DNA from: Candidatus Bathyarchaeia archaeon
Lineage (GTDB): Archaea; Thermoproteota; Bathyarchaeia; Bathyarchaeales; Bathycorpusculaceae
DNA length: 64,000 nucleotides
Assembly (NCBI GenBank): GCA_041447175.1
Contig: CP166960.1
Span: forward strand, 891,507-955,506
Direction: 5' to 3'
In this document: positions 3,935 through 42,923 of the stretch, piece after piece
Layout of the letters: every line of letters starts with the position of its first letter
How positions within the stretch are numbered: the stretch's first letter is position 1
Notes under the pieces: model-generated
What the model was told of the DNA's origin: nothing
Seen by the model: only the letters and a program-made list of their open reading frames with translations
Databases searched by the model: none
Translations under genes and position numbers: made by a program

Positions 3935-4492
3935 TTAAGGGAAAAGTTCAGAAGCCACTTTCTTGTAAACGTTGAAGTCAAAATCTGAAAACAACACAAA
4001 AAATACTTCTTCCACACTGTTCTCCCTGGACTCCAAAAAACGTTTCACTGCCCTCAGAGCAACTGGGCAGGCTCGCTCAATCGGATAGCCATACACGCCT
4101 GTACTTATCGAAGGAAAAGCAACTGAACGCAACCGGTTAGCAACAGCTACTTTCAGCGAATTAACATACGACCAAGCCAACAAATCGGGTTCCCCGCGGG
4201 TTCCGCCTCGCCAAACAGGACCAACCGTGTGAATAACCTTTTGGGCTTTCAAATTTCCGCCTGTTGTGATGACGGCTTGACCAGTTGGAAGCCCGTTTGG
4301 GTAGGCGTTTTGACGAATTTTTCGGCATTCTTCCAGAATTTTTGGTCCGCCTTTTCGGTGAATTGCGCCATCGACGCCTCCGCCGCCCATCAGAGACGAG
4401 TTTGCGGCGTTAACAATTGCGTCCGTAGTCATTTCTGTTATGTCCCCTTTAACCAGCAACACCTTTGCGTGACCAATATGAAATGTGTCCAT
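3935..4492 (-). CDS. Macro domain protein (O-acetyl-ADP-ribose deacetylase type)
   Basis: A 185-residue single macro domain. Diagnostic motifs are VKGDITEMTTDAIVNAANS (ADP-ribose binding Asp and Asn), the glycine-rich GGGGVDGAIHRKGG loop, and ISTGVYGYPI (phosphate loop). This is the YmdB/MacroD arrangement, which hydrolyses O-acetyl-ADP-ribose or removes mono-ADP-ribose from proteins. It starts 12 bases after the LysE stop, with AAGGA upstream, so the two are probably co-transcribed. All substrate-contact motifs are present, so activity is likely. Confidence 0.92.
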   Translation of the reverse strand: MDTFHIGHAKVLLVKGDITEMTTDAIVNAANSSLMGGGGVDGAIHRKGGPKILEECRKIRQNAYPNGLPTGQAVITTGGNLKAQKVIHTVGPVWRGGTRGEPDLLAWSYVNSLKVAVANRLRSVAFPSISTGVYGYPIERACPVALRAVKRFLESRENSVEEVFFVLFSDFDFNVYKKVASELFP

Positions 4493-4504
4493 TTCTGTTT
4501 CCTT

Positions 4505-5146
4505 CTACATAAGGGTGGTTAGGGTTTGCCAAAGGGCTGAGCTGAAGAACCACGCACCAAACCCAACTAGTATGGCGACGCAGAAAAAGGTGATGCCTTT
4601 GTGCACTTTTGGGGTCCAGAATTTGTGGGACTTAAAAATCACCACAGCCACCACCGTATACCATACCAAGTCACATGACCAGTGAAGCCCCGCGAAAATG
4701 GTGAAACCTGCTAGCCCAAACAGTTTCGCATTCAAAATCAGCGCGGTTCCTACGGTTAGCCACCACAAAATGAAAGCGGGGTTGGCAGCTGTGGTTTTGA
4801 CTCCTGCAATAAGGGAATCCTGAGCTGAGCCAGCGTATTTCTCTTCAGGCTGGTTGCGTTTCCTAAACGTCTGCACCCCCAGATACATCATGAGTAAACC
4901 GCCCACGACGCCGATGCCCGCCTGTGCGTACCAGGGGATTTCAAATTCACTTAGCAAAAAGAAAATCAGAAACATTAAAGGAAATTCAACCAGCCCGTGT
5001 CCCAAAGCGATGAGTACCCCAGCGTTTTTGCGTTTTAGGGATTTCTCAATTGTAACCGCAAACAATGGACCTGGCAGAAGCACCCCTGACATTGATATGA
5101 ACGCAACTGATGTAAGAAACAGCGGAAAGTCAGTGATAAGAGCCAC
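4505..5146 (-). CDS. LysE family translocator
   Basis: An integral membrane exporter of the LysE/RhtB superfamily, about six transmembrane segments, exporting amino acids or related small molecules. The N-terminal SMSGVLLPGPLFAVTIEKSL matches the family's GxxxPGP signature. Segments follow at GVLIALGHGLVEFPLMFLIFFLL, AGIGVVGGLLMMYLGVQTF, the ANPAFILWWLTVGTAL region, and two C-terminal helices. The GTG at 5146 is chosen because GGAG lies at 5157-5160, ten bases upstream; a TTG three codons earlier would be too close. The substrate is not predictable. It leads the macro-domain operon. Confidence 0.88.
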   Translation of the reverse strand: MALITDFPLFLTSVAFISMSGVLLPGPLFAVTIEKSLKRKNAGVLIALGHGLVEFPLMFLIFFLLSEFEIPWYAQAGIGVVGGLLMMYLGVQTFRKRNQPEEKYAGSAQDSLIAGVKTTAANPAFILWWLTVGTALILNAKLFGLAGFTIFAGLHWSCDLVWYTVVAVVIFKSHKFWTPKVHKGITFFCVAILVGFGAWFFSSALWQTLTTLM

Positions 5147-5208
5147 GTAAATCAAGCTCCACGATGCAAGGGTATGGTTTGTATTGGCTCAAAAATGTTC
5201 CTCGAAGG

Positions 5209-5739
5209 TTACGTTTTTCCGCCCAACTTGTTTTGCATTACCGCGACCACTTCGGCGCTGTCTTTGGTTGCCGCATAAGCGTCTAGCAGGGACGCGTTGA
5301 GTTCAAAGAATGTGTGGCCCCACGTGAAAACTGAAAGCAGCTGCTTGGCTTCCTCCTGAAAACCCGCGATGTAAAGGGCGCCAGCCAACGCCTCAACCGT
5401 ACTCAGCTTGGTGGCTTTGGCAAAGTTGGTTGGGTTGCCTGCGATCAAAACAGGCAGACAACGGGAGGTTCCGCGTACATGGTGTGACAGAACCTTTTCT
5501 GCGTGCTCCCAACTGCAATCTAATGCCACAAGACCAGCTTCAGCAACGCGTTCTCGGTCGGCGGGCGAAAATGCAGTTTTGGCAAATGGGTTGAGCACTA
5601 TTGCTCGTTTAGGGAGCCACCGCGTCTGCTTTACTATTCGGGCTAGACCGTGTCTTTTGAGTTTTAGGGCGGTGCAGCGTTTGGGGTCGCATTGGTTCGC
5701 GTGGTAGATAGTTATGTTGATGCTAAGTGTTCTTTCCAC
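5209..5739 (-). CDS. tsr3: Tsr3-like rRNA aminocarboxypropyltransferase (DUF367)
   Basis: A 176-residue SPOUT-like enzyme that transfers the aminocarboxypropyl group of SAM to a hypermodified uridine of small-subunit rRNA. Features are the N-terminal DPKRCTALKLKRHGLA (RLI-like domain; DPKxCTxxKL is diagnostic), the central IVLNPFAKTAFSPAD and GLVALDCSWEHA, and the TKLSTVEALAGALYIAGF helix. Length is normal. The GTG start overlaps the end of the upstream NAD(P)HX repair gene by 17 bases, indicating co-transcription. Confidence 0.93.
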   Translation of the reverse strand: MERTLSINITIYHANQCDPKRCTALKLKRHGLARIVKQTRWLPKRAIVLNPFAKTAFSPADRERVAEAGLVALDCSWEHAEKVLSHHVRGTSRCLPVLIAGNPTNFAKATKLSTVEALAGALYIAGFQEEAKQLLSVFTWGHTFFELNASLLDAYAATKDSAEVVAVMQNKLGGKT

Positions 5740-23284: not shown

Positions 23285-24088
23285 ATGTACATAGTGTCTG
23301 AACATTTACCTGAATGGCCTGAACCAGGCGACTTAGTAATCGCCACTATCGAAAGTTTAAGGGATTATGGAGCCTACGCAAACCTTGACGAGCACAACAG
23401 ACGCGGCTTTCTACACATCTCCGAAATCTCCAGCGCCAGAATAAGAAATATCCGTGACTTTGTACGGGAAAAACAAAAGATGGTGCTCAAAGTTATTCGA
23501 GTAAACGCAGAAAAAGGGCACATTGACTTATCTCTAAGACGCGTGACAAAACGGGAAAGAATCGAAAAAATCAAATCTTGGAAAAAGGAACGCAAAGGTG
23601 AAGCTATTCTTCATGCGGTAGCCGAAAGATTAGGGTTGCCCACACACGAAGTCTACCAGCAAGCGGGCGTTATTCTTGAAGAAAACTACGGCTTATACGA
23701 AGGGTTCGAAAAAGTCGTGAAAGAGGGCATCGAAGTTCTAACAAAGCTTGAAATACCTGAAGAAATGGCTAAAGCTATCGTACAAGTTGCAGAAGAACGC
23801 ATACGAATTAAGATGATAAAGGTCAAGGGCACTCTTGAAGTTCGCTGCATGAAACCCAATGGCATTAAATGTATTCAAGCGGTCTTCAACACCGCCAAGA
23901 AAGCACAAAAAGCAAAAGATGCTAAAATCGAATTTGCAGTAATCGCCGCTCCTAGATATTGTGTGGAAGTTTCAGCAGATAACTGGAAACGTGCTGGAGA
24001 ACTCTTGGAAAAGGTTGGTCAAAGTGTGGTGGCGAACATAACCAAAGCAGGAGGACAAGGCGGCTTTAAGAAGGATGTTAGGCGGTAA
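23285..24088 (+). CDS. Translation initiation factor aIF2, alpha subunit
   Basis: A 267-residue subunit of the factor that brings initiator tRNA to the ribosome. An S1/OB domain (residues ~12-88) contains GDLVIATIESLRDYGAYANL and FLHISEISSARIRNIRDFV, ending with GHIDLSLRRV. A helical domain follows (ERKGEAILHAVAERLG...), then the C-terminal alpha/beta domain (KGTLEVRCMKPNGIKCIQA) that contacts the gamma subunit. Length and domain order are standard. The downstream partner nop10 usual in archaea is not adjacent. Confidence 0.96.
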   Translation: MYIVSEHLPEWPEPGDLVIATIESLRDYGAYANLDEHNRRGFLHISEISSARIRNIRDFVREKQKMVLKVIRVNAEKGHIDLSLRRVTKRERIEKIKSWKKERKGEAILHAVAERLGLPTHEVYQQAGVILEENYGLYEGFEKVVKEGIEVLTKLEIPEEMAKAIVQVAEERIRIKMIKVKGTLEVRCMKPNGIKCIQAVFNTAKKAQKAKDAKIEFAVIAAPRYCVEVSADNWKRAGELLEKVGQSVVANITKAGGQGGFKKDVRR

Positions 24089-25296: not shown

Positions 25297-26127
25297 ATGA
25301 ATTATAAAGAACGGCAAGAAATAATTAAAAAATCGCCAATATCTTTTCAATACCTTAAGCGGTTCAACATTGGAGCAGGCACACTACAGCTAGTAAACGG
25401 GTTAGCAATACTATCGCTAACTTTTCTTTTGACATGGCCTAAAGGCACCGACATCTACACATTCTATCTTCAATTCCAACATGTCACCCCAACATCGCCC
25501 GCCATCTTTGGATTCCCCAGCCCACAAGTTATCTTTACCGTGGATTATCTTGGTGTGGTGCTGGCGGCTTTTCCTTTGATTTCGGCGTTTGCTCACTTCA
25601 TGATTGCGTTTCCCAAAAATCAACAGTACAACGAGAACCTCAAAAAAGGCATAAACCCCTACCGCTGGTATGAATACGCTTTCTCCAGCTCCATAATGAT
25701 TTGGGTCATCGCCACGTTTGTGGGCATCTGGGATTTCTGGTCGCTTGCAATGATTTTTCTGCTTAACGCAATGATGATTATGTTCGGGTACCTCATGGAA
25801 GTCATTAACCAAAAAACCGAGAAAACAAACTGGTCCGCCTTCATCTTAGGCTGCATCTCAGGCGGGTTCCCCTGGGTAGTGCTGTTCGCATACTTCACGG
25901 GCGCAGTTGTAGCAAGCGAGGGCAACGTGCCAGCGTTTGTTTACACCATTTTTGCGGTTTATTTGGTGCTGTTCATGAGTTTCGCGGTGAACATGGTTTT
26001 GCAGTACAAGGGTGTAGGACGCTGGAGAGACTACCTGTATGGGGAACGCGCCTACATCGTGTTAAGTTTTGTGGCAAAAACGCTGCTGGTTTGGCTAGTG
26101 TTTGCAGGGCTGTTTCGACCATTCTAA
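25297..26127 (+). CDS. Heliorhodopsin
   Basis: A 276-residue seven-helix protein. The diagnostic region is NPYRWYEYAFSSSIMIWVIA (helix 3), where E126 is the family's Schiff-base counterion. The last helix has VLSFVAKTLLVWLVFAG, with retinal-binding Lys K261. Other family-like parts are FLLNAMMIMFGYLMEVIN (helix 4) and VYTIFAVYLVLFMSFAVNM (helix 6). Heliorhodopsins are inverted relative to type-1 rhodopsins (N-terminus inside) and have slow photocycles, so a sensory or signalling role is favoured over pumping. No retinal-synthesis gene is in the window. TTAATATAATT at about 25258-25268 fits a TATA box. Confidence 0.9.
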   Translation: MNYKERQEIIKKSPISFQYLKRFNIGAGTLQLVNGLAILSLTFLLTWPKGTDIYTFYLQFQHVTPTSPAIFGFPSPQVIFTVDYLGVVLAAFPLISAFAHFMIAFPKNQQYNENLKKGINPYRWYEYAFSSSIMIWVIATFVGIWDFWSLAMIFLLNAMMIMFGYLMEVINQKTEKTNWSAFILGCISGGFPWVVLFAYFTGAVVASEGNVPAFVYTIFAVYLVLFMSFAVNMVLQYKGVGRWRDYLYGERAYIVLSFVAKTLLVWLVFAGLFRPF

Positions 26128-26463
26128 ATCAACCCCCTCTTTTTTTGTCTATTTGGATGCTATTAGCAATTGAATGCAGAACCTATAGAGGGGTAGAGGT
26201 CTGTCAAAACGTAGCCTACCTACCACACCAGAAGAAGCCCAAGAAAAACCATAAAAATTGGAACTCAATGAATACGAGGCGTATTGTTTGGTGGACGAGG
26301 CTAGCTTAAAGCCGTCGTTTAAACCGTCGTTACACAATTGATAGGTTTGTGTTAATCTCGCGATATAATGCGTATTTGATGCTAAACAAAGAGCAGTTAA
26401 AAGCGAGAAAAAGCATCACATCTCACTAACATCTCAAATTTTATTTTTAGTACCCTTTAAAAA
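26128..26463. other. Spacer at the island's left boundary
   Basis: No gene. It contains the 14-bp copy of the tRNA-Ala 3' end (26288-26301), followed by the inverted pair GGCTAGCTTAAAGCC. The DNA becomes more A/T-rich to the right. Confidence 0.5.
26288..26301. repeat. Putative attachment-site copy (14 bp)
   Basis: TTGGTGGACGAGGC, identical to the tRNA-Ala 3' end at 35722-35735. Flanking bases differ on both sides, so the match is exactly 14 bases. It is not part of a complete tRNA. Confidence 0.6.
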
Positions 26464-29400
26464 TCAGGGTACCGTCAGATAGGAGAATTTAATATTTTGC
26501 TCGGGGTATTCTGTTAGCCATATCACGCCTATTCTGCCCCCGCCAGTCCTGTAGAAACTGGACACAACAAAATCATATCGCAACGTATCGGTTATCCAGT
26601 CTGTAACAAGAGCGTCCCAAGTCCCACTCACACACTTCTTGTAAAATATGTGATTTTCCGTAGGAACTGAAGACCAGAAACAGTACAAATCACCTGAAGA
26701 AGTATCCACAGTTAAAGTTGGCTCTAATGAGCAGTAATAATAAATTTTTATCCAACTATAAACATCTTGAGGGAAACTCCAAATAGCAGTTCGATTAACA
26801 TATTTTATCGTTATTCTATAGAGAGGTTCGCTCAATTCATTGTCTCCTAAGTAAGTAGCTGATCTATAAACTATATGAATAACATCTCCTTTAGTTACAA
26901 CTGAAAACTGGGCTGAACTAATGCTGTTTGTAATTGTCTCTGGATTTCCCCAAGAGGAGCCGTTCCAAAGCTGCCCAAAAAGACTTGTACCAGAAACGTA
27001 GAGAACGTAGATTTTGCCAGATGATAAGGGAACTAAAGTCACGCCAGTGCTTGAGGTTATACTGTATGGAAAACCAGTCGCAGTTGACCAAGTTCCATTA
27101 TTTAAGGCTGACTTTATGACACTATAACTCGCACCAGTATAGTAGCTTATAAAAGGGTACCCATCTGAATCCACAGCTATAGTCGGAGTGCCGCCGACAA
27201 ATTGAACTACTCGCGGATTATAGGAAGACCACGTTATTGTCCCGTTTGCGTTTGGCAGTCCCCGCCTGTAAAACAAGCCATTCCAAGCATATGCGTAATG
27301 CACATATGTCCCGTCAAAATGAATCGCTAAATGGTCTCCAGTTCCGCATTGAGCTATTTGTGTTTCAGCGCTCCAATTGGTTCCATCAGTGGATGTTTTA
27401 TAGGTCAAACAGGCGCTTTTACTATAGAAAACCCAAAAACGACCATTAGCAAAAAAGGTTTTACGTTGTGAAGGGTAAACTGTAGCGTAACCATCACTTG
27501 TTGTGTCTACAACAGAAGGTGCGTTTATTCGGAGATAATTAGCAGTGAGGGTCATGTTTGAAAATATGGATAACGTTATGGGATTATCGTAGAAAGTTTC
27601 ATTAGTGTAGGTATAACTTCGGAATGAATAACCGCTTGGAATACTAACTTGAATCGTGTGAACGCCTAAAGACATATTGAATGTACCACCTGTGGTTCCA
27701 CAAGGCTGCCCATCTATAGTGACATTAGCTGTAACAGCGCTTCCAAAATCGTCAGCTGCTGGAATTTGCACAATATAATGGGAATAGGCATAGTTAGCGG
27801 TAACGGTCATGTTTGAATAAACAGGTATCCACGCGGGATTATTGCTGTTCGTACAGCCATTATATGTGTAGTTCTGGAAAACTAGGCCGTTTGGGATAGT
27901 TACTTGTATTGTGTGGTCACCTGGTAAAATGTTGAAGCTGTTTCCTGTAGTTCCGACCAATTGGCTGTCTATGTACACATTCGCGGGTACGGAGCCTCCA
28001 ACGTTGTCGTATGCAAGTACCTGTAGTGAGTGAAAAGTCGGTGTATCGGAGGTATTCATGTATGCAAATCTTAGTTCAGGATTTGGGTACGGCGTCGTCC
28101 ATATGACGCCAGTTTTGTTTTCGTAACTTCTGGCGAAACTAGCTATAACAGAATTTTGAAGGGAGTCACGTATCCAATCCATAGTTGAGGACCACGTTCC
28201 ATTGATACATGTCTTGCAATAAATATGGTTGGCTCCTGAGCCAGACCGTGGAGCCCAAAAAAAGCACAGGTTGTTTGTTGACGATTCAATGCATAAACTT
28301 GTTATGGCACGAACGTCTGAGCGCTGCACTATTTGGGGTGAGCCCCAGCTCGAAGTGCGTTTCGCGTGATACAACGCACAGATGGGGTTGCCCCATTCGT
28401 CATAGTCTATTATGGCATCATAGGTTATGTGGACAACATCGTTTTGGCTGACAATCGAATCGCAATATGCGACTGGCAGGTTTTCTTCGTTTCCCCATGA
28501 AGAGCCATTCCATAATCGCCCTAGACCAATACCGACCCCATTGTAAAGGAGATATACTTTATTCGTGGCCAAGGGAACTATTGAAACGCTCCAAGGTGCA
28601 CTACTGCCCCATGATGTTGGGGTATATGGAAAACCTGATGCTGTAGACCATGTACCATCATTGGTAGAAGACTTTATGACCATAGGGACATAGCTTGGAT
28701 TATACCCGTTATATCCTATGAATGGGTAACCATTTGAGTCGACACAAATAGTGGCGGGCGCACTGTAACCTTGACTTAATACTCTGTATTCGTTTGACCA
28801 AGTTATAGTTCCGTTCGCATTGGGCGTTCCTCGTCGGTAATTCATCCAGTCATTCCATGTGTTCACGTAGTGAACATAAAATCCGTCGAAGTAGATAGAA
28901 AAATATGTGTTGGACCCACACGTGGTTACGTGAGTTGATAGACTCCATGTGATTCCGTCCGTGGACGTTTTGTAAGCCATGTAATAGTATTCATAATATT
29001 CGCCTGGTTCAACAAAGAAAGACCAGAAGCGTCCGTTCGCATAGAAACTTTTACGTTCTGTCGGAAAAGGTGCACCCGTAACAGAAGTTGAAGTTATTGT
29101 GCTTGCTTTAGGGTCGGACCATGCGTAGTGTACTGTTACTGTTGTATCCTGACTAAATATTGTAGTGCAGGGGTTAGTGTAAAGAGTGTAGCTCCGATAA
29201 GTGGAATAGTGAAAGGCATAGCCGTTTGGGACGCTTACCTCAAGTGAGTGGTATTCGGAGGATACGTTAAAGCTTTGTCCTGTTGTTCCTCGTAGCTGTC
29301 CATCGATATAGACATTCGCGGTTACTGGACTGCCTACGCTGTCTTCTGCCTCCAACGTTAGCAGGTAGTAGTAAATTTGGGGTGGTGGAGGCTCATAAAT

Positions 29401-31815
29401 CGCCACCGAATGAGGCATAGACCATTCGCTTGATGCCCCTCCCGTATCTTGGGCGCGAACTTTGACGTTAAATTGCCCTGTGGATTCCCAGAAATGTGAC
29501 GCTGTGACCTGCGTCCCACTTGCATTTGGGCCTATTGTAGTATGTTCTGTGCCGTCTCCCCAATCAAAAATGTAGTAAATGTTATCACCGTCAGGGTCTA
29601 TTGCCTGCGCAGTGAAATCATAATAGTAGCCCATGATTAATGAGGACGTTGGACCGTCAAGAGAAAGTGCAGTTGGCGGGTTAGGCGGAGGAGGAGGAGG
29701 AGCTGTATAATACGCTACTATCGTTTGATCTGAGTTTATCTCTATGTTTACCGGGTTGGTGTAGTAATCTGTTCCATTGTAGCGGAAATGACTAAAAGTG
29801 CAATTATACAAAGTTGCATTGACACCAACACTGTAGCTCCCAGAAATCAACCTAGGATCCTTACCTATTTCCTTAAAGTCGGTACTGTTTATACTAAAAA
29901 CTGGTGACATAAGGTTCCCATAGTTATCCCGAGCATCCAACATCAACATAGGCTGATACAACTTAATGTCACCATTACCATAAACCCTCAGCCAGCCTTC
30001 CCCTATTTCATAGCCGAAACGGGTCATCCATTCATACTCACCACTGTCTGAATTAAAACGGTACATCGGCCAGATTGCTGTAAACCCTCCATAAAGCGGC
30101 GTTTCATCAAAACTAGTACAGCCCGCAAAGTAGTCCTGCGACGCACGGTCTAACGCCTCATTTACCGTATAGTCAGCCGTCAAGGCATAAAAAAAGAACT
30201 TCTCAAGCCACAAATGATAAGGCGGCCAAACTGCGGTAGTCTCATTCCATATCCCTATTGTTTGGTTTAGAGCCGCTGATCCCCAGTCAAAGCCTATGTA
30301 GCAAAAAGCACCATTATCTGAACAATTGTACCCGTCGCCACTCATATAACCCGTGAGAGGGGTTGTAGTATTTGCGCCCACCATTTTGTGAGTCCACGCA
30401 TATGGCATTCCCTGAACATTACCAGAAGTAGAATTTGGGCCGTTACCGTGATCTGTGTTAGCTGACATACATGCATTGATAAAAGCAAAGAAGGTGTTGG
30501 TTAAGGTAGTCTGGCTGGCTATATCCATATCATAAAGCATATGAGTACCATAATAGTCACTTAGTTCCATTGCATGTGTCCAGTTGTTTTCGTCTAAGTA
30601 ATAATCTAAGCCTACATTGTCCTCAAAAAAATAGTGAAATTCGTTTGGAGCAAGCTGATAATTACTTGCACCAACGCCATGGTCAAAATCAACTACTGCA
30701 ACACGAGGATAGTTTTGTTCATTATAGGAAATCTGGTACAAAATATCGTCTTTATATGAGCCCTTGTTACCCTGAAAGTCACTGGCGCTGTATCCGTTAC
30801 TGGCGAATAAATTATTAATGTATTGAGCAGTGGCTTGCTGCTGTGAAACTTCTGGATTTGTTTTGCGCATACTTGACTTAATGGTATAATTGTATGCGCC
30901 CATACTTTCGGATCCCCAAACGGTGGAGCGCCCCTGCAAGGGAGTGGCGTCAACTGTTGAGATCGGAATTAAGAGCATTGACAACATAAGAACACAAAAC
31001 AACACCCCGCTAACTTTGAACCAGCGAGGTTTTAGTAGAGTATTAGACCGAAAATGTTTCTTTTTCCATCTTAACCAGAGCAGACCAGCACAAAGCGTAA
31101 CAGCGGCAAAAACTGGAACCGCGATCCAAGTATCCGATACCGAGTTTACCTTCGCGTCAACCGTAAAAGCTTGACCATTGGAGAGGACAACTGTGCAATC
31201 TTCAATAGCGGCAACTAAATCAGCTGGCGGATCCGAAGTGGAAACCCGTTCGTGAATATAGCAGACATCTTTTGTATCAGCCCAAAGGTAAACGTTCATG
31301 CCGTACACGTTGCCAGGGTAAAACTTATCTAAACTAACCCAAACATGCCGCAACGGAAAAAGTTCAAAAAGGTCTTGGCTATGCGCTTTATCAACATAAA
31401 GCGAAGGAGCAAAAATTGTTTCAATCATCATCGCGTTTGTTACATTAAACTTCGTAACTACAAACGTGCTATTGCCCGATGCTTTCGAAGTGTTATTGCT
31501 TGATGGTGCTATCCACGAATAAGTTTTCGCGCTTGCCATCGCTGTGTCTATTGCTTCTTCCTCTGAAAGGTTTACGCTTGTGCTACCGATTCTGTAGAGG
31601 TTCCAGTTGTCAATGAAGCATTTTAGGAAACCATTCTCGTAACGCAAGACTACGCACTTATCTGGCGCTTCTATTCCATTATATGAGTAGGTCCAACTGA
31701 AAGTTGTCGAATTCTCTTTAGAGGTTACTTCAAGCTTCATGTTTCCAGATGCTGCCGTTGAATTCTTGTTAGGATCAACCGTAGTGAGTGCTGATTCCAG
31801 TTTTCCGTAAAGCAC
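26464..31815 (-). CDS. Giant modular surface protein, main part (His/Cys peptidase-like, PKD, beta-propellers)
   Basis: A 1783-codon frame, open further upstream to about 31883, where the signal-peptide-bearing fragment joins it. Order: an N-terminal region of unknown fold (~1-225); helix ~229-247, basic KKKH, helix ~268-287; a domain with VVDFDHG (H379) and FFAFINACM (C449), spaced like the catalytic pair of clan CD (caspase/gingipain-like) cysteine peptidases; a PKD domain (YIFDWGDGTEHTT ... STGQFNVKVRAQD). Then come three copies of a small module (ANVYIDGQLRGTTG, ANVYIDSQLVGTTG, ANVTIDGQPCGTTG) and two related ~300-residue repeats (YANGRFWSF / FANGRFWVF, RRGTPNANGTITW / RRGLPNANGTITW, RLWNGSSWGN / QLWNGSSWGN) likely to be beta-propellers. 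Many NxS/T sites suggest glycosylation. Confidence 0.8.
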   Translation of the reverse strand: MLYGKLESALTTVDPNKNSTAASGNMKLEVTSKENSTTFSWTYSYNGIEAPDKCVVLRYENGFLKCFIDNWNLYRIGSTSVNLSEEEAIDTAMASAKTYSWIAPSSNNTSKASGNSTFVVTKFNVTNAMMIETIFAPSLYVDKAHSQDLFELFPLRHVWVSLDKFYPGNVYGMNVYLWADTKDVCYIHERVSTSDPPADLVAAIEDCTVVLSNGQAFTVDAKVNSVSDTWIAVPVFAAVTLCAGLLWLRWKKKHFRSNTLLKPRWFKVSGVLFCVLMLSMLLIPISTVDATPLQGRSTVWGSESMGAYNYTIKSSMRKTNPEVSQQQATAQYINNLFASNGYSASDFQGNKGSYKDDILYQISYNEQNYPRVAVVDFDHGVGASNYQLAPNEFHYFFEDNVGLDYYLDENNWTHAMELSDYYGTHMLYDMDIASQTTLTNTFFAFINACMSANTDHGNGPNSTSGNVQGMPYAWTHKMVGANTTTPLTGYMSGDGYNCSDNGAFCYIGFDWGSAALNQTIGIWNETTAVWPPYHLWLEKFFFYALTADYTVNEALDRASQDYFAGCTSFDETPLYGGFTAIWPMYRFNSDSGEYEWMTRFGYEIGEGWLRVYGNGDIKLYQPMLMLDARDNYGNLMSPVFSINSTDFKEIGKDPRLISGSYSVGVNATLYNCTFSHFRYNGTDYYTNPVNIEINSDQTIVAYYTAPPPPPPNPPTALSLDGPTSSLIMGYYYDFTAQAIDPDGDNIYYIFDWGDGTEHTTIGPNASGTQVTASHFWESTGQFNVKVRAQDTGGASSEWSMPHSVAIYEPPPPQIYYYLLTLEAEDSVGSPVTANVYIDGQLRGTTGQSFNVSSEYHSLEVSVPNGYAFHYSTYRSYTLYTNPCTTIFSQDTTVTVHYAWSDPKASTITSTSVTGAPFPTERKSFYANGRFWSFFVEPGEYYEYYYMAYKTSTDGITWSLSTHVTTCGSNTYFSIYFDGFYVHYVNTWNDWMNYRRGTPNANGTITWSNEYRVLSQGYSAPATICVDSNGYPFIGYNGYNPSYVPMVIKSSTNDGTWSTASGFPYTPTSWGSSAPWSVSIVPLATNKVYLLYNGVGIGLGRLWNGSSWGNEENLPVAYCDSIVSQNDVVHITYDAIIDYDEWGNPICALYHAKRTSSWGSPQIVQRSDVRAITSLCIESSTNNLCFFWAPRSGSGANHIYCKTCINGTWSSTMDWIRDSLQNSVIASFARSYENKTGVIWTTPYPNPELRFAYMNTSDTPTFHSLQVLAYDNVGGSVPANVYIDSQLVGTTGNSFNILPGDHTIQVTIPNGLVFQNYTYNGCTNSNNPAWIPVYSNMTVTANYAYSHYIVQIPAADDFGSAVTANVTIDGQPCGTTGGTFNMSLGVHTIQVSIPSGYSFRSYTYTNETFYDNPITLSIFSNMTLTANYLRINAPSVVDTTSDGYATVYPSQRKTFFANGRFWVFYSKSACLTYKTSTDGTNWSAETQIAQCGTGDHLAIHFDGTYVHYAYAWNGLFYRRGLPNANGTITWSSYNPRVVQFVGGTPTIAVDSDGYPFISYYTGASYSVIKSALNNGTWSTATGFPYSITSSTGVTLVPLSSGKIYVLYVSGTSLFGQLWNGSSWGNPETITNSISSAQFSVVTKGDVIHIVYRSATYLGDNELSEPLYRITIKYVNRTAIWSFPQDVYSWIKIYYYCSLEPTLTVDTSSGDLYCFWSSVPTENHIFYKKCVSGTWDALVTDWITDTLRYDFVVSSFYRTGGGRIGVIWLTEYPEQNIKFSYLTVP

Positions 31816-31886
31816 ATTTCTAGAATAGGTTTGGTAATTGCTAAGGAAGTCTTGAGCAGTTTCAAGGACGGTAGCGGCTGTTTTAG

Positions 31887-32228
31887 TTAGGTGTGGGAGC
31901 CTTCATTCTCAAGCACGTTTATCTTTTGCAGGTTCCCGTTTACGAACGTATGAACTATGTCCAGCTTGCTTCCGTTAGACTCAAGAGCATAGCGCACGTT
32001 CTCCTGAGGAAGAAGTTCTAAGTAAAAATCTTGATACTCGCTCTTTTGGGCTGACTGGTATTTTGTGAGGTCAAGACCCACCACCTCATTTGATATTGCT
32101 AAGCCTTCTTGTTGTTGAGTTGTAATGCTTTTTGCATGTACGTTAGGAGTTAATGTGGCATATGCGCCCAAAATCAAAATTAGCGAGAGAAAAACTATTG
32201 TAAAGTTTCGCTTAGACTGCCTAATCAT
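31887..32228 (-). CDS. Signal-peptide N-terminal fragment of the giant surface protein
   Basis: A 113-residue product that begins with a signal peptide (MIRQSKRNFTIVFLSLILIL, cleavage near VHAKS) and ends abruptly in ...NEGSHT then TAA. The next frame continues at once as LTKTAATVLETAQDFL and runs into the 26464-31815 ORF. The two are therefore one gene broken by an apparent 1-base loss near 31886-31890. Rejoined, the protein is about 1,920 residues with a proper export signal. A real mutation or an assembly error are equally possible. The ATG at 32228 is chosen for the signal peptide. Confidence 0.75.
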   Translation of the reverse strand: MIRQSKRNFTIVFLSLILILGAYATLTPNVHAKSITTQQQEGLAISNEVVGLDLTKYQSAQKSEYQDFYLELLPQENVRYALESNGSKLDIVHTFVNGNLQKINVLENEGSHT

Positions 32229-32340
32229 AACCTTGTTTCCCCTCTTTTCCTCAAAATCCAAAAGCAGCAAGCTTTGGATTTTGCTCCCTGAGTACCCTTT
32301 GTTTTCCGATTTGCTTTTAAATTTTGCCATCAACAACGCT

Positions 32341-32387
32341 GTTCTTTTGGAGGAACAGGCTGTTCTTCAGGGAGAGTTAAAAAGGAG
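32341..32387 (+). promoter_or_regulatory. Duplicated leader block 1, with GTTC-GAAC inverted repeat
   Basis: A 47-base block that aligns without gaps to 34079-34125 at 34 of 47 positions. It opens with GTTC-N8-GAAC and ends GTTAAAAAGGAG, and lies 31 bases before the start of the first NosD-like gene. Conservation of both ends suggests a shared control site. Confidence 0.5.
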
Positions 32388-32418
32388 CCTACCCACACTG
32401 TATATTAAGGGACTAAGC

Positions 32419-34068
32419 TTGAACAAGCGCCTAGCAGTTATCTTTATCCTCACAAGCCTCATCAGCTTACTCACTGTTACAGTTGGACCCACAAAAGCAA
32501 GTTCCCAAACCATCATCGTACCCGACGACTACCCAACCATAACCGACGCCATAGGCAACTGCACCAAGGAAGACACAATTTTCGTTAAAAGCGGAATATA
32601 CGCCGAGCAGACACTGGTTATAAACAAGACACTCACACTAATTGGCGAAAACGCTGAAGACACAATTATAAATAACATAGACTCCCACGCCATGGTTGAG
32701 TGGCTAGGTGGTTATCGTATGCCATTTGGAATAACCACCGCTGTAGATGTTAAAGCAAACGATGTAAAAATCTCAGGTTTCACCATAACCAACGCATCAA
32801 CTGGCATCACCACAGAAGGTAACGAAACAAAAATAGTCGCCAATATCATAGAAGGACTAGACACCGATGGCGGCTATGATATAGGCATCAGTGCAAGCGG
32901 CAAAGGCACTCAAATTATAGATAATATTATAAATGCTGCAAATGTGGGCATCTTTGATAGCGGCTCATATCAAGTTATCATGCAAAACATTTTTAATTCA
33001 ACAAGTTGCACCGTTGGCCCTTATGGACAATACAATATCATCGCAGACAACATCTTATACGGGTCGAGGGCAGGTATTAACTTACAGGGCAATTTGAATG
33101 TAGCTTATAACAATACTGTTGTAGATGGAGACATTGGAATTGAAATCACTGGCGTTAGTAATATAATCTACAAAAACGTCTTAAACCAAAATAATCTGGG
33201 AATCGAAATAGGACCATGGGCTATAAATGATTTTTTGAGTAACAACATTGTATGTGCAAACACAATAACCGATAACCAGCGCTATGGCATCATAATCGCT
33301 TCAGGTAGAAATAACACTGTTTATGCAAATCATATTGCAGACAACAAGGAAATCGGCGGCATGATTGCATGGAATCAATCATCCGGCATACTCTATAATG
33401 AATCTGACAGAGAGAGATGGCAGGGGCGGAATGCTGATAACAACACCTTTTACAACAATAACTTTGTAAACAATAGCGCATCTGAAGCTACTGATTGGAG
33501 TTGGCAAGGCACCAATTCTTGGGATAATGGCAAAGAAGGTAATTACTGGAGCGACTATAACGGCACAGACGCCAACGGTGACGGCATAGGTGATGTATCA
33601 TACCCAGTAAATAAACCGTATAGGATACTAATCAGCAGTTTTCCTGAAGCCCAACTTCAGGATCCAACGGTAGTAAACCCTAACAACGTTTCTGACCGTT
33701 ATCCGCTTATGGAACCCTTTGACACCGAAAGCATAACCATAGAGTTACCTGAATGGGCAACTGTTACCCCCCACCAAATCCCTTCATTTTCGCCTTCACC
33801 AAGCCCACCTCCAACCCAACCCCCAAGCCCCTCTCCAACACCTAAAACAACCCAAACCCCAAACCCCACACCAACATCAACAAGTGCACAAACACCCTCA
33901 CCACCCCTAACAGAACAACCTTCGCCTTCAAACTCAGTTCCACCAACAAGCAACAATTCTAGCAGGTCAACAGACGCGTACTGGACAGCCGCAGCCGCCG
34001 TGGTAGCTGTGACCATAGTAATCATCGCAGCAACACTCATGCTCAGAAAACAGCACAACAGCAAATAA
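32419..34068 (+). CDS. NosD-like parallel beta-helix surface protein 1
   Basis: A 549-residue secreted protein. It has a signal peptide (KRLAVIFILTSLISLLTV), a NosD-type start IIVPDDYPTITDAIGNC, then right-handed beta-helix repeats rich in N-x-I/V (NIIDNIINAAN.., NTITDNQRYG, NNTFYNNNFVNN), and the conserved cap WDNGKEGNYWSDYNGTDANGD. A Pro/Thr/Ser stalk follows (about 455-520), then a transmembrane anchor VVAVTIVIIAATLML and RKQ. The TTG start at 32419 has AAGGGA 6 bases upstream; the longer frame is rejected because it lacks the signal peptide at its N-terminus. Likely carbohydrate-binding or structural, on the cell surface. Confidence 0.88.
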   Translation: MNKRLAVIFILTSLISLLTVTVGPTKASSQTIIVPDDYPTITDAIGNCTKEDTIFVKSGIYAEQTLVINKTLTLIGENAEDTIINNIDSHAMVEWLGGYRMPFGITTAVDVKANDVKISGFTITNASTGITTEGNETKIVANIIEGLDTDGGYDIGISASGKGTQIIDNIINAANVGIFDSGSYQVIMQNIFNSTSCTVGPYGQYNIIADNILYGSRAGINLQGNLNVAYNNTVVDGDIGIEITGVSNIIYKNVLNQNNLGIEIGPWAINDFLSNNIVCANTITDNQRYGIIIASGRNNTVYANHIADNKEIGGMIAWNQSSGILYNESDRERWQGRNADNNTFYNNNFVNNSASEATDWSWQGTNSWDNGKEGNYWSDYNGTDANGDGIGDVSYPVNKPYRILISSFPEAQLQDPTVVNPNNVSDRYPLMEPFDTESITIELPEWATVTPHQIPSFSPSPSPPPTQPPSPSPTPKTTQTPNPTPTSTSAQTPSPPLTEQPSPSNSVPPTSNNSSRSTDAYWTAAAAVVAVTIVIIAATLMLRKQHNSK

Positions 34069-34078
34069 GAGACCAACT

Positions 34079-34125
34079 GTTCCTCTACAAGAACAAAACG
34101 TTCCCCAAGGAGAGCTAAAAAGGAG
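34079..34125 (+). promoter_or_regulatory. Duplicated leader block 2, with GTTC-GAAC inverted repeat
   Basis: The counterpart of 32341-32387, ending GCTAAAAAGGAG 27 bases before the second NosD-like gene. It shows that gene and leader were duplicated together. Confidence 0.5.
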
Positions 34126-34152
34126 ATTGCATTTTACCATCTGTGACAAAGG

Positions 34153-35562
34153 ATGAATAAGCACATTGCGGTTATCTTTGTTATCATCAGCCTGACCGCT
34201 TCAAATACAATAACACTCCAGCCTGCCCAAGCAAAATCTAAAACAAGTGTTGTCCCAGACGATTTCCTCACCATAGCAGATGCAATCGGCAACGCCACAG
34301 ACGGCGCCACAATTTTCGTTAGGAAAGGAACCTATCAAGAACACTCAATTGAGATAAACAAAACGTTATCGCTTATAGGCGAAGCCCCCAATACCACCAT
34401 AATAGAGGACATAGACCCTCAAGTGCTCGTACTTCCCACCCAACTTCTACCAGAAAACAGCGCACCAATCAAAATTGCCGCCGATAACATCAAAATCTCA
34501 GGCTTCACCCTCACCAACGGCGGCAACGGCATCTCAGGAACAGGCAGCCAGACACAAATAACCGACAACCTCATAACAGCACCATATGGCTGCATAAACC
34601 TCAAAGGCTCAAACATAACCATCACACAAAACATCATAGAAAATAACGCTAACGGTGGCCTCAGTGGTTATGGCATCAAATGCAATGGATACTACAACAC
34701 AATTGCTTCAAACAGAATTACTGGACCAAACAACTATGCAATTACCATAGAACACGAAAGCTCCTTAAACGTAGTATGTAACAACACCATAGTAGATGCG
34801 GGCAGTATACACGTATACGGCAACAGAAACGTAGTTGCCAAAAATAGCCTAACTCATGGCGGCATCTCAATAGACGGAACATCTAACACTGTCTATTCAA
34901 ACAGAATCGAAGGGTCTGGTTTTGGTCTTGTTGGCTATAACAATACTTTCTATGCGAACTACTTGACATACGCTGTAAACGTTGGAAGCAACGTAGAAGA
35001 TGCAGCAAATAATATTTTTTACGATAATAACTTTGTCGGCAGTACACAAGTTGGGGGCTGGATCGGCGTACGTGGACCTAACTTTTGGGATAATGGTGTT
35101 GAGGGTAACTTTTGGAGCGATTATAACGGTACAGACAGCAACAACGACGGGATAGGCGATTTTCCATACACAATTGACGCTAACAATCAAGACAACTACC
35201 CACTTATGGCACCATATAACATAGACAGTGTAATCGCAGAACTGCCAGAATGGGCAAACACCTCGCCGCCAACACCGCCTTTTCCGACACCCACACCGAC
35301 TTTGCCTCCAAACACCTCAACACCAACAACAAACCCAACCACAACAATCACCCCCACTCTAGCCCCAACCACAACACAAACACTCCAACCTTCACCATCA
35401 ACCCCCACACAGCAACCAACACAACTCGACTCAGAACCTTCAACAGGCAAAAATACAGGATTGCAAGCCAACATGCTCTTGATAGCCACAGTTACGGTCA
35501 TAATAATTGCATTAGGGACAGCCTTAGCAGTGGTCTTCAGGAGAAGAAAAACCGACGCCTAA
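34153..35562 (+). CDS. NosD-like parallel beta-helix surface protein 2
   Basis: A 469-residue paralogue of the preceding gene with the same order: signal peptide (HIAVIFVIISLTASNTITL), VVPDDFLTIADAIGN, a shorter beta-helix with N-rich turns, the cap FWDNGVEGNFWSDYNGTD, a Pro/Thr stalk (about 365-430) and a C-terminal anchor LIATVTVIIIALGTALAVV plus RRRK. About 80 residues of the beta-helix are missing relative to copy 1. It lies 84 bases downstream on the same strand, a tandem duplication. Confidence 0.88.
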   Translation: MNKHIAVIFVIISLTASNTITLQPAQAKSKTSVVPDDFLTIADAIGNATDGATIFVRKGTYQEHSIEINKTLSLIGEAPNTTIIEDIDPQVLVLPTQLLPENSAPIKIAADNIKISGFTLTNGGNGISGTGSQTQITDNLITAPYGCINLKGSNITITQNIIENNANGGLSGYGIKCNGYYNTIASNRITGPNNYAITIEHESSLNVVCNNTIVDAGSIHVYGNRNVVAKNSLTHGGISIDGTSNTVYSNRIEGSGFGLVGYNNTFYANYLTYAVNVGSNVEDAANNIFYDNNFVGSTQVGGWIGVRGPNFWDNGVEGNFWSDYNGTDSNNDGIGDFPYTIDANNQDNYPLMAPYNIDSVIAELPEWANTSPPTPPFPTPTPTLPPNTSTPTTNPTTTITPTLAPTTTQTLQPSPSTPTQQPTQLDSEPSTGKNTGLQANMLLIATVTVIIIALGTALAVVFRRRKTDA

Positions 35563-35722
35563 AACGGGCAAAAAGGTCCAAAAAGTGCTTGGCTAAACTA
35601 AACTTTAAAAAGCGGACGGTATAAACGCAAAAGCAAAATCCCTAAAACGCAAAAATAAATCTCGAAGAAAAACATTCGAATAGTAAAAAAGAGATTAAAT
35701 TAAGCATATTTTGGAAGTTTGT

Positions 35723-35800
35723 TGGTGGACGAGGCGGGATTTGAACCCGCGGCCTCCACGATGCCAACGTGGCGATCATGCCAGGCTGATCTACTCGCCC
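35723..35800 (-). tRNA. tRNA-Ala (GGC)
   Basis: On the minus strand: acceptor GGGCGAG/CTCGTCC (with the alanine identity pair G3-U70), D arm GATC...GATC, anticodon stem CCACG/CGTGG with loop TTGGCAT (anticodon GGC), T arm GCGGG TTCAAAT CCCGC, discriminator A at 35726 and an encoded CCA at 35723-35725. All stems pair and no intron is present. Its 3' end is duplicated at 26288-26301, marking it as an integration target. Confidence 0.97.
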
Positions 35801-42047: not shown

Positions 42048-42923
42048 ATGTTGGAAGAGGTTGCGTTTAACCTCATAAGACAAGCAGTTATCTACTTACC
42101 GGTGGACGTCAAAGAGGCATTAACTAATGCGTACGCAAATGAAAGCAGTGCCATTGCCAGAACTCAGCTAAACGCACTCTTAGACAACATCGCTTTGGCT
42201 GAAGCCCAAGAGAAGCCAATTTGTCAAGATACAGGAACCTTGACATTCTACGTCAAAGCAGGTGCAGATTTTCCAAACATAGACAAACTTGAAAAGACGT
42301 TAAATTCGGCAGCAAAACGTGCAACACAGGAAATTCCGCTTCGCCCAAACGCCATAAACCCTTTCACAGGAAAAAATAGCGACGATAACACGGGGCGCTT
42401 TGTGCCAGTGGTGCATTGGGAAATCGTGCCGGGGGAAGAGTTGGAGTTAACGGTTTTGGTTAAGGGGGGTGGCTCTGAAAACGTTTCAGCTGTTGGGATG
42501 CTTTCTGCCGGTGAAGGGGTACGTGGGCTTAAGCGGTTTGTGGTTGATGCCGTTGTTAAAGCAGGCGCAATGCCTTGTCCACCAACGATTCTGGGTGTTG
42601 GCGTCGGTGGCGGCGCAGATGTCGCAGTTGCTTTAGCCAAGAAAGCTCTGCTTAGACCGCTAAACAAACCAAATGGAGATGTTGAAATTGCGGGTTTGGA
42701 GCGGGAGCTTTTGGAAGCGGCAAACATGACTGGTGTTGGCCCTATGGGTTTAGGTGGTGACACATCGGTTTTGGGTGTACATGTAGATTGGGCATTTAGG
42801 CATCCTGCGTCGTATCCTGTTGCAGTTGTTTTTAGCTGTTGGGCGTGTCGGCGTGCTTCGGCGCGAATCAACGCTGACGGCGAGGTAGTGTACTTGAATC
42901 ACTGCATGGAGGATACGGTTTAG
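42048..42923 (+). CDS. Fumarate hydratase class I, alpha subunit
   Basis: A 291-residue subunit of the [4Fe-4S] fumarase (fumarate to malate, TCA cycle). Cluster Cys are in KPICQDTG, GAMPCPPTI and FSCWACRRA; GVGVGGGADVAV and GPMGLGGDTS are typical of the alpha (FumA N-terminal/TtdA) half. A related L-tartrate dehydratase cannot be wholly excluded by sequence alone. The beta-subunit gene begins on the next base after its stop. Confidence 0.93.
   Translation: MLEEVAFNLIRQAVIYLPVDVKEALTNAYANESSAIARTQLNALLDNIALAEAQEKPICQDTGTLTFYVKAGADFPNIDKLEKTLNSAAKRATQEIPLRPNAINPFTGKNSDDNTGRFVPVVHWEIVPGEELELTVLVKGGGSENVSAVGMLSAGEGVRGLKRFVVDAVVKAGAMPCPPTILGVGVGGGADVAVALAKKALLRPLNKPNGDVEIAGLERELLEAANMTGVGPMGLGGDTSVLGVHVDWAFRHPASYPVAVVFSCWACRRASARINADGEVVYLNHCMEDTV

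Follow-up and report, generated by a model that had tools for sequence, protein, structure and literature searches.

A conserved tandem-repeat arm beside tRNA 3′-end duplications marks cassette-like islands in Bathyarchaeia, including a secreted-protein island at tRNA-Ala

Casposons duplicate about 14 bp of tRNA 3′ ends, and tycheposons are elements of 4-200 kb with XerD, those of Prochlorococcus carrying whole tRNAs. Among archaeal elements, short attachment repeats, a preference for tRNA 3′ ends, tandem integration and loss of the integrase after integration have all been documented, with direct repeats of 13 bp in SNJ2 and 8 bp in Thaumarchaeota, and the review that covers them names no arm-type sites for archaea (PMC8371274). 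In Methylophilaceae, additive flexible islands of 0.3-42 kb with mixed cargo lie at tRNA-Lys, with repeated 20-nt 3′ ends before them (PMC10872708). The Bathyarchaeia islands described below resemble the pNOB8, SNJ2 and Met26-2 tyrosine-recombinase elements in targeting the tRNA 3′ end and in their short direct repeats (PMC8371274), and among annotated viral proteins the candidate integrase of the long members comes closest to pleolipovirus integrases. Unlike those families, they have in common a single constant two-repeat arm that accompanies different tRNA cores throughout the class, and the majority of them are short elements with no integrase. The Methylophilaceae islands also combine mixed cargo beside a tRNA with direct repeats of its 3′ end, but they are bacterial, are confined to one tRNA and have no conserved arm described in the part of the report cited (PMC10872708). 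The same part presents tycheposons as tRNA-associated islands with a tyrosine recombinase and variable cargo (PMC10872708), whereas the islands considered here keep only a tRNA end plus the arm, and their short members are without a recombinase. In the open-licence literature searched, neither a constant arm combined with exchangeable tRNA cores nor cassettes of this kind from Bathyarchaeia were found described.

The window, by which we mean the whole stretch of 64,000 nucleotides analysed here, belongs to a genome that is a single contig of 2.73 Mb (G000; G001 is a congener, other G numbers are Bathyarchaeia relatives, and L numbers are loci). Two exact plus-strand copies of TTGGTGGACGAGGC lie in it in direct orientation, at 26288-26301 and 35722-35735, with 0 mismatches, and a one-mismatch variant occurs at 42572 on the minus strand. 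The first-pass annotation had read this 14-mer as the 3′ terminus of tRNA-Ala with its encoded CCA, recurring once in the same orientation, and both points hold: ARAGORN places tRNA-Ala(GGC), the apparent integration target gene, at 35723-35800 on the minus strand (Rfam RF00005, 60.3 bits), and the 14-mer is not dispersed, these being its only copies genome-wide, with 0 for a reversed control and a chance expectation of about 0.02 for any given 14-mer in a 2.73-Mb genome. The attL-like copy at 35722-35735 is the tRNA-side core, formed by the acceptor 3′ strand and the encoded CCA, and the attR-like copy at 26288-26301 is the distal core, which holds the same module position in other species. 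As in tRNA-integrated elements, the island is bounded by direct repeats that match the 3′ end of the tRNA exactly, and the intact tRNA stands at one end; inside the window island, neither a complete tRNA gene nor a tyrosine recombinase was found, only the 14-bp tRNA end on the distal side.

The 9.4 kb between the two cores hold genes for surface or secreted proteins. A minus-strand ORF at 26464-31815 encodes a 1783-aa secreted PKD/PEGA protein (Pfam) and is the main part of a frameshifted giant gene, the N-terminal 149 aa of which, with a signal peptide, lie in another frame at 31887-32336 (minus strand). Both parts match one intact 2096-aa protein of the G001 island, the long ORF from residue 151 onward and the short one at residues 4-120 (38% over 117 aa), in keeping with the earlier view that the giant gene is broken. 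Two NosD/beta-helix secreted proteins follow on the plus strand, one at 32125-34068 (PF05048, 1.3e-12), with its true start probably downstream of 32125, and one at 34153-35562 (PF13229, 1.2e-10), 160 bp from the tRNA end. The ORFs and Pfam assignments also bear out that no integrase gene lies in the window island, which in this respect departs from a tRNA-integrated element. The impression that the island is more A/T-rich than its surroundings did not survive, as its G+C is 0.431 against 0.439 in the left flank and 0.452 in the right one (0.458 in the whole window); low G+C was set aside as a sign of foreign DNA since the island is close to its flanks. The genes suggest the label of surface-protein cassette for the window island, while cargo elsewhere is very mixed.

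The distal core is directly adjoined by a conserved arm of two tandem repeats of about 13 bp, TAGCTTAAAGCCGTC at 26302-26316 and GTTTAAACCGTC at 26317-26328 (plus strand; alignment A5 with copies from 10 species, and a match in G001). A further conserved stretch at the island end, beginning CAATTGAYAGGTTTRTG and common to G006 and G002, follows at 26329-26366 on the plus strand (alignment A4), and a flank search against the loci of relatives matched 26284-26332 (49 bp) at 86% identity to a stretch in G001. The last 5 bases of the arm repeats covary across copies (201 of 255 matches, against a maximum of 181 in 5000 permutations), the pattern to be expected if a single protein binds both. On the tRNA side, a clear arm is found only in three tRNA-Leu elements, where inverted counterparts lie 15-17 bp from the tRNA. 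The window has a weak candidate on the minus strand at 35613-35626, GCGTTTATACCGTC read from the tRNA, with 2 mismatches to the arm repeat and 95 bp from the tRNA, which could be a chance match. In four genomes (G001, G012, G024 and G049), CCA is present in the distal core but is not encoded by the tRNA gene, which fits strand exchange inside the acceptor that swaps the tail.

A first sequence-only model of the module found further copies, and a second model was used for the class-wide search, in which 75 of 257 Bathyarchaeia genomes had a match at E<=0.01, the weakest of these including chance ones, with 27 matches at E<1e-6. The variable part of the module corresponds to the 3′ terminus of the tRNA beside it, and the tRNA families concerned are Ala, Leu, Met, Gln and Phe. 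Among the further copies, the core proved to be the end of an adjacent tRNA-Leu (G012), tRNA-Met (G054), tRNA-Ala-TGC (G038) or tRNA-Ala (G024 and G049); at loci left out of the model, the core matches the tRNA exactly for Phe in G133 (L263), Gln in G029 (L289), Leu in G161 and G239 (L272 and L295) and Ala in G193 (L271). The match is poor at four loci (L266, L217, L277 and L270). Summed over modules, the agreement between core and adjacent tRNA is 147, against a permuted mean of 94.4, and 0 of 5000 permutations reach it. The module lies 0.7-9.4 kb from its tRNA, nearly always with the tRNA on one side and strand: 21 of the 29 tRNAs within 10 kb of 55 modules are on the window's side and on the minus strand (3, 4 and 1 in the other arrangements), a count for which more sequence was available on that side; in equal 1.5-kb windows, with training loci excluded, the expected side and strand are favoured by 6 to 1. 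Two or three modules stand in tandem at several loci. The named records that hold the exact arm pattern together with the module are all Candidatus Bathyarchaeota, and bacterial matches to the short arm pattern are as many as chance predicts. Four model matches (L186, L187, L205 and L190) were set aside as they appear to fall in protein-coding sequence, and three exact pattern matches in viral contigs were likewise dismissed, all being chance coding matches in unrelated phages. The claim that the duplication is of the integrase type, with the insert on the 3′ side of the tRNA, gains from this recurrence of an attachment-like arm at other tRNAs with matching cores.

The insertion reading is also backed by different inserts between the same flanks in sister species. 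In G012 and G161, which belong to one genus, the flanks are 82-88% identical up to the module and again from the tRNA-Leu 3′ end, and the inserts between them, of 0.70 and 6.4 kb, are unrelated. The single base that separates the two tRNAs is mirrored in the distal core of each, and the G161 insert holds a second tRNA-Leu end, with a trailing arm the same as the tRNA-side end of G012, which looks like the internal boundary of an earlier insertion. Between G049 and G197, the indel starts within the arm, not at the core, and is more like a deletion than a clean excision.

As to the tRNA-Ala locus itself, the module of G001 is found 6.7 kb from the same tRNA-Ala, again on its 3′ side, and the interval holds, in the opposite orientation, a homologue of the giant gene; the case that would count against the island boundary, the same genes in the same place lacking the boundary copy, was thus not encountered. 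In G003 and G005, the cluster w44361/w47458/w49267/w52005 adjoins a bare tRNA-Ala on its 3′ side, and in G001 the cluster keeps to this side, but the island with its module and some other genes stand between it and the tRNA, so that an insertion at tRNA-Ala in G001 is supported. In G000 the cluster, at 44-52 kb of the window, is now on the other side of tRNA-Ala, which points to one breakpoint close to the tRNA 3′ end, and heliorhodopsin is the left neighbour of the island; with the cluster moved and the left flank rearranged, the original junction of the window can no longer be reconstructed. Gene order is heavily scrambled among species of this one genus (window 18000-64000 compared with G001-G007), hence no clean empty site can be demonstrated for the window locus: in the relatives examined, none joins the left flank of 26288 to tRNA-Ala, and none has heliorhodopsin beside tRNA-Ala.

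Among the elements, a tyrosine integrase of XerA/SNJ2-like type occurs in three long ones, and the short elements and the window element have none. In G006 and G002 this 395-aa recombinase is accompanied by Orc1/Cdc6 and situated near the expected tRNA end, and in G110 fragments of the same recombinase remain at the tRNA-side end. The contigs of G006 and G002 end before the tRNA, so no autonomous member was observed with both of its ends; if the model presented below is correct, the tRNA 3′ end CCGCAGCACCA (G006:C3) or CGGCACCACCA (G002:C16) should lie within a few kb of the integrase. The recombinase has a PF00589 domain, with PF02899 in one of the proteins, and a zinc ribbon, and its presumed catalytic residues are conserved among four relatives. 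Its closest annotated viral proteins are pleolipovirus integrases, with 37% identity over 94% of the length to that of a Geoglobus pleolipovirus, a pairwise match for a subfamily that is absent from the window genome. Its position suggests that this candidate integrase acts on the arm; two pleolipoviruses and two IMG/VR contigs showed no arm near their integrases, and an episomal form in which the attachment site is joined was looked for and not found. At E<=0.001, neither G000 nor G001 has a member of the subfamily, and since the giant gene of the window is frameshifted as well, the window copy is probably old.

The cassettes hold one or a few genes, among them those for phosphofructokinase, cobalamin synthesis, a methyltransferase and DUF362, as well as toxin-antitoxin genes of the ParE and AbiE types. 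One tandem array at tRNA-Ala (L271 in G193, oriented positions 4173-5301) includes a single-gene cassette with an intact phosphofructokinase. The arm-bounded element of G006, of about 20 kb (L209 9751-20000, and L224), bears a CRISPR array with Cas1/Cas2/Cas4 and other cas genes, RHH/PIN, AbiE-like and HEPN/MNT-like pairs, Orc1/Cdc6 and the integrase.

We consider it highly probable that the module marks a family of integrase-dependent integrative cassettes targeted to tRNA 3′ ends, of which the window island would be a member that has partly decayed, lacks an integrase and carries genes for secreted proteins. The attachment site would comprise a core of 10-14 bp that reproduces the 3′ end of the targeted tRNA exactly and, beside the distal core, the constant arm of two tandem repeats of about 13 bp; in some members, another arm site, inverted, would lie directly behind the tRNA. 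The larger members, those with Orc1/Cdc6, carry a tyrosine recombinase that is a relative of XerA and of pleolipovirus integrases, and this enzyme probably binds the arm and probably exchanges strands within the tRNA core. Such an exchange would restore the tRNA, now followed by a new 3′ trailer, and leave the old tRNA end as the distal copy. For the short members and the window island, the integrase may have been lost or may act in trans from elsewhere, and repeated insertion at one tRNA could give tandem arrays. Directly observed are the module with its tRNA match, side and orientation, the unrelated inserts at one tRNA-Leu site and the tandem copies; we infer which recombinase acts and where the strands are exchanged, and likewise that members could move in trans and may be mobile at present. 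On the whole, this looks like a widespread way for Bathyarchaeia to swap genes in and out, mostly with no integrase gene on board.

Other origins of the same pattern have to be weighed against integration. That the resemblance of the two 14-bp stretches is mere coincidence hardly deserves credence; 14 bp is short for an attachment site, but the genome of 2.73 Mb has two exact copies, and the extended module recurs across the class with matching tRNAs, which refutes this explanation. It also seems improbable that the distal module encodes an RNA, regulatory or antisense, which would base-pair in a T-box-like manner with the 3′ end of the mature tRNA, its closeness to the cognate tRNA being incidental. 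The core is indeed the complement of the tail of the mature tRNA, CCA included, also in cases where the gene lacks CCA, and a hairpin can be drawn beside several copies; yet the folding energies against shuffles are inconsistent (z from -2.6 to +1.2 over 10 copies), the module has no Rfam match, it lies between convergent genes in the window and in G006 rather than in a 5′ leader, and neither the fixed side and strand near a matching tRNA nor the varied inserts between the same flanks would be expected of an RNA regulator.

About equally improbable is a casposon-type origin, by which a Cas1-family transposase would have made the 14-bp tRNA 3′-end duplication as a target-site duplication. The length and place of the duplication are casposon-like, and the three tRNA-Leu elements have an inward arm repeat at both ends at a similar distance from the core, but terminal inverted repeats are absent at the very ends in the window and most copies, and neither Cas1 nor DNA polymerase B occurs in the cassettes examined, the one Cas1 of G006 belonging to its CRISPR locus. 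Moreover, the tandem repeats are one-sided, and the CCA status differs between copies, when the two copies of a target-site duplication would have started identical. Greater weight, though well short of even, goes to the possibility that island and module are an ancient immobile remnant, with inserts varied by homologous recombination between islands at the same tRNA and no active recombinase. G000 and G001 do lack an integrase of the subfamily, the giant gene is frameshifted, and G197 shows an indel internal to the arm. This possibility accounts less readily for the species-specific tRNA bases mirrored in the distal core (G000/G001 and G012/G161), which suggest recent exchange or conversion, for tandem modules at one tRNA, and for the same module at five tRNA families.

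For the integrative cassettes that we favour, an integron-like mode of capture could be proposed tentatively, in which helper plasmids or viruses would provide, in trans, a recombinase that reads the constant arm, the core of 10-14 bp would pick the tRNA, and arrays of cassettes would be built. Like integrons, these are arrays of short one- or few-gene cassettes at an anchored site, with the recombinase possibly in trans; unlike integrons, the anchor is a tRNA gene, the fold test gave no folded attC-type site, and the candidate integrase falls short of the integron type (it scores 55 bits, where the cut-off is 265). Should this proposal be right, one machinery would serve many tRNA genes and cargo as different as surface proteins, enzymes, toxin-antitoxin and CRISPR genes. 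The module also provides a sequence tag for mobile cassettes in an abundant and almost uncultured archaeal class, where most of the islands have no integrase and would otherwise be missed, and the combination of a constant arm with a varying core makes target choice by archaeal integrases directly testable.

Left of the island, a stretch of about 45 bp at 26147-26196 is a dispersed element, with matches of 76-87% identity at several unrelated positions in the genomes of congeners, for which reason it was rejected as an old junction. The adjoining heliorhodopsin gene (25297-26127; PF18761, E 4e-86) stands beside genes for TrpRS and eIF2-alpha, and heliorhodopsin is present in 15 of 61 genomes searched around G000, including other genera and members of the order. 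The eIF2-alpha gene (23285-24088) is one of two paralogues in G000, which are 70% identical, and close relatives of this copy occur in some congeners only.
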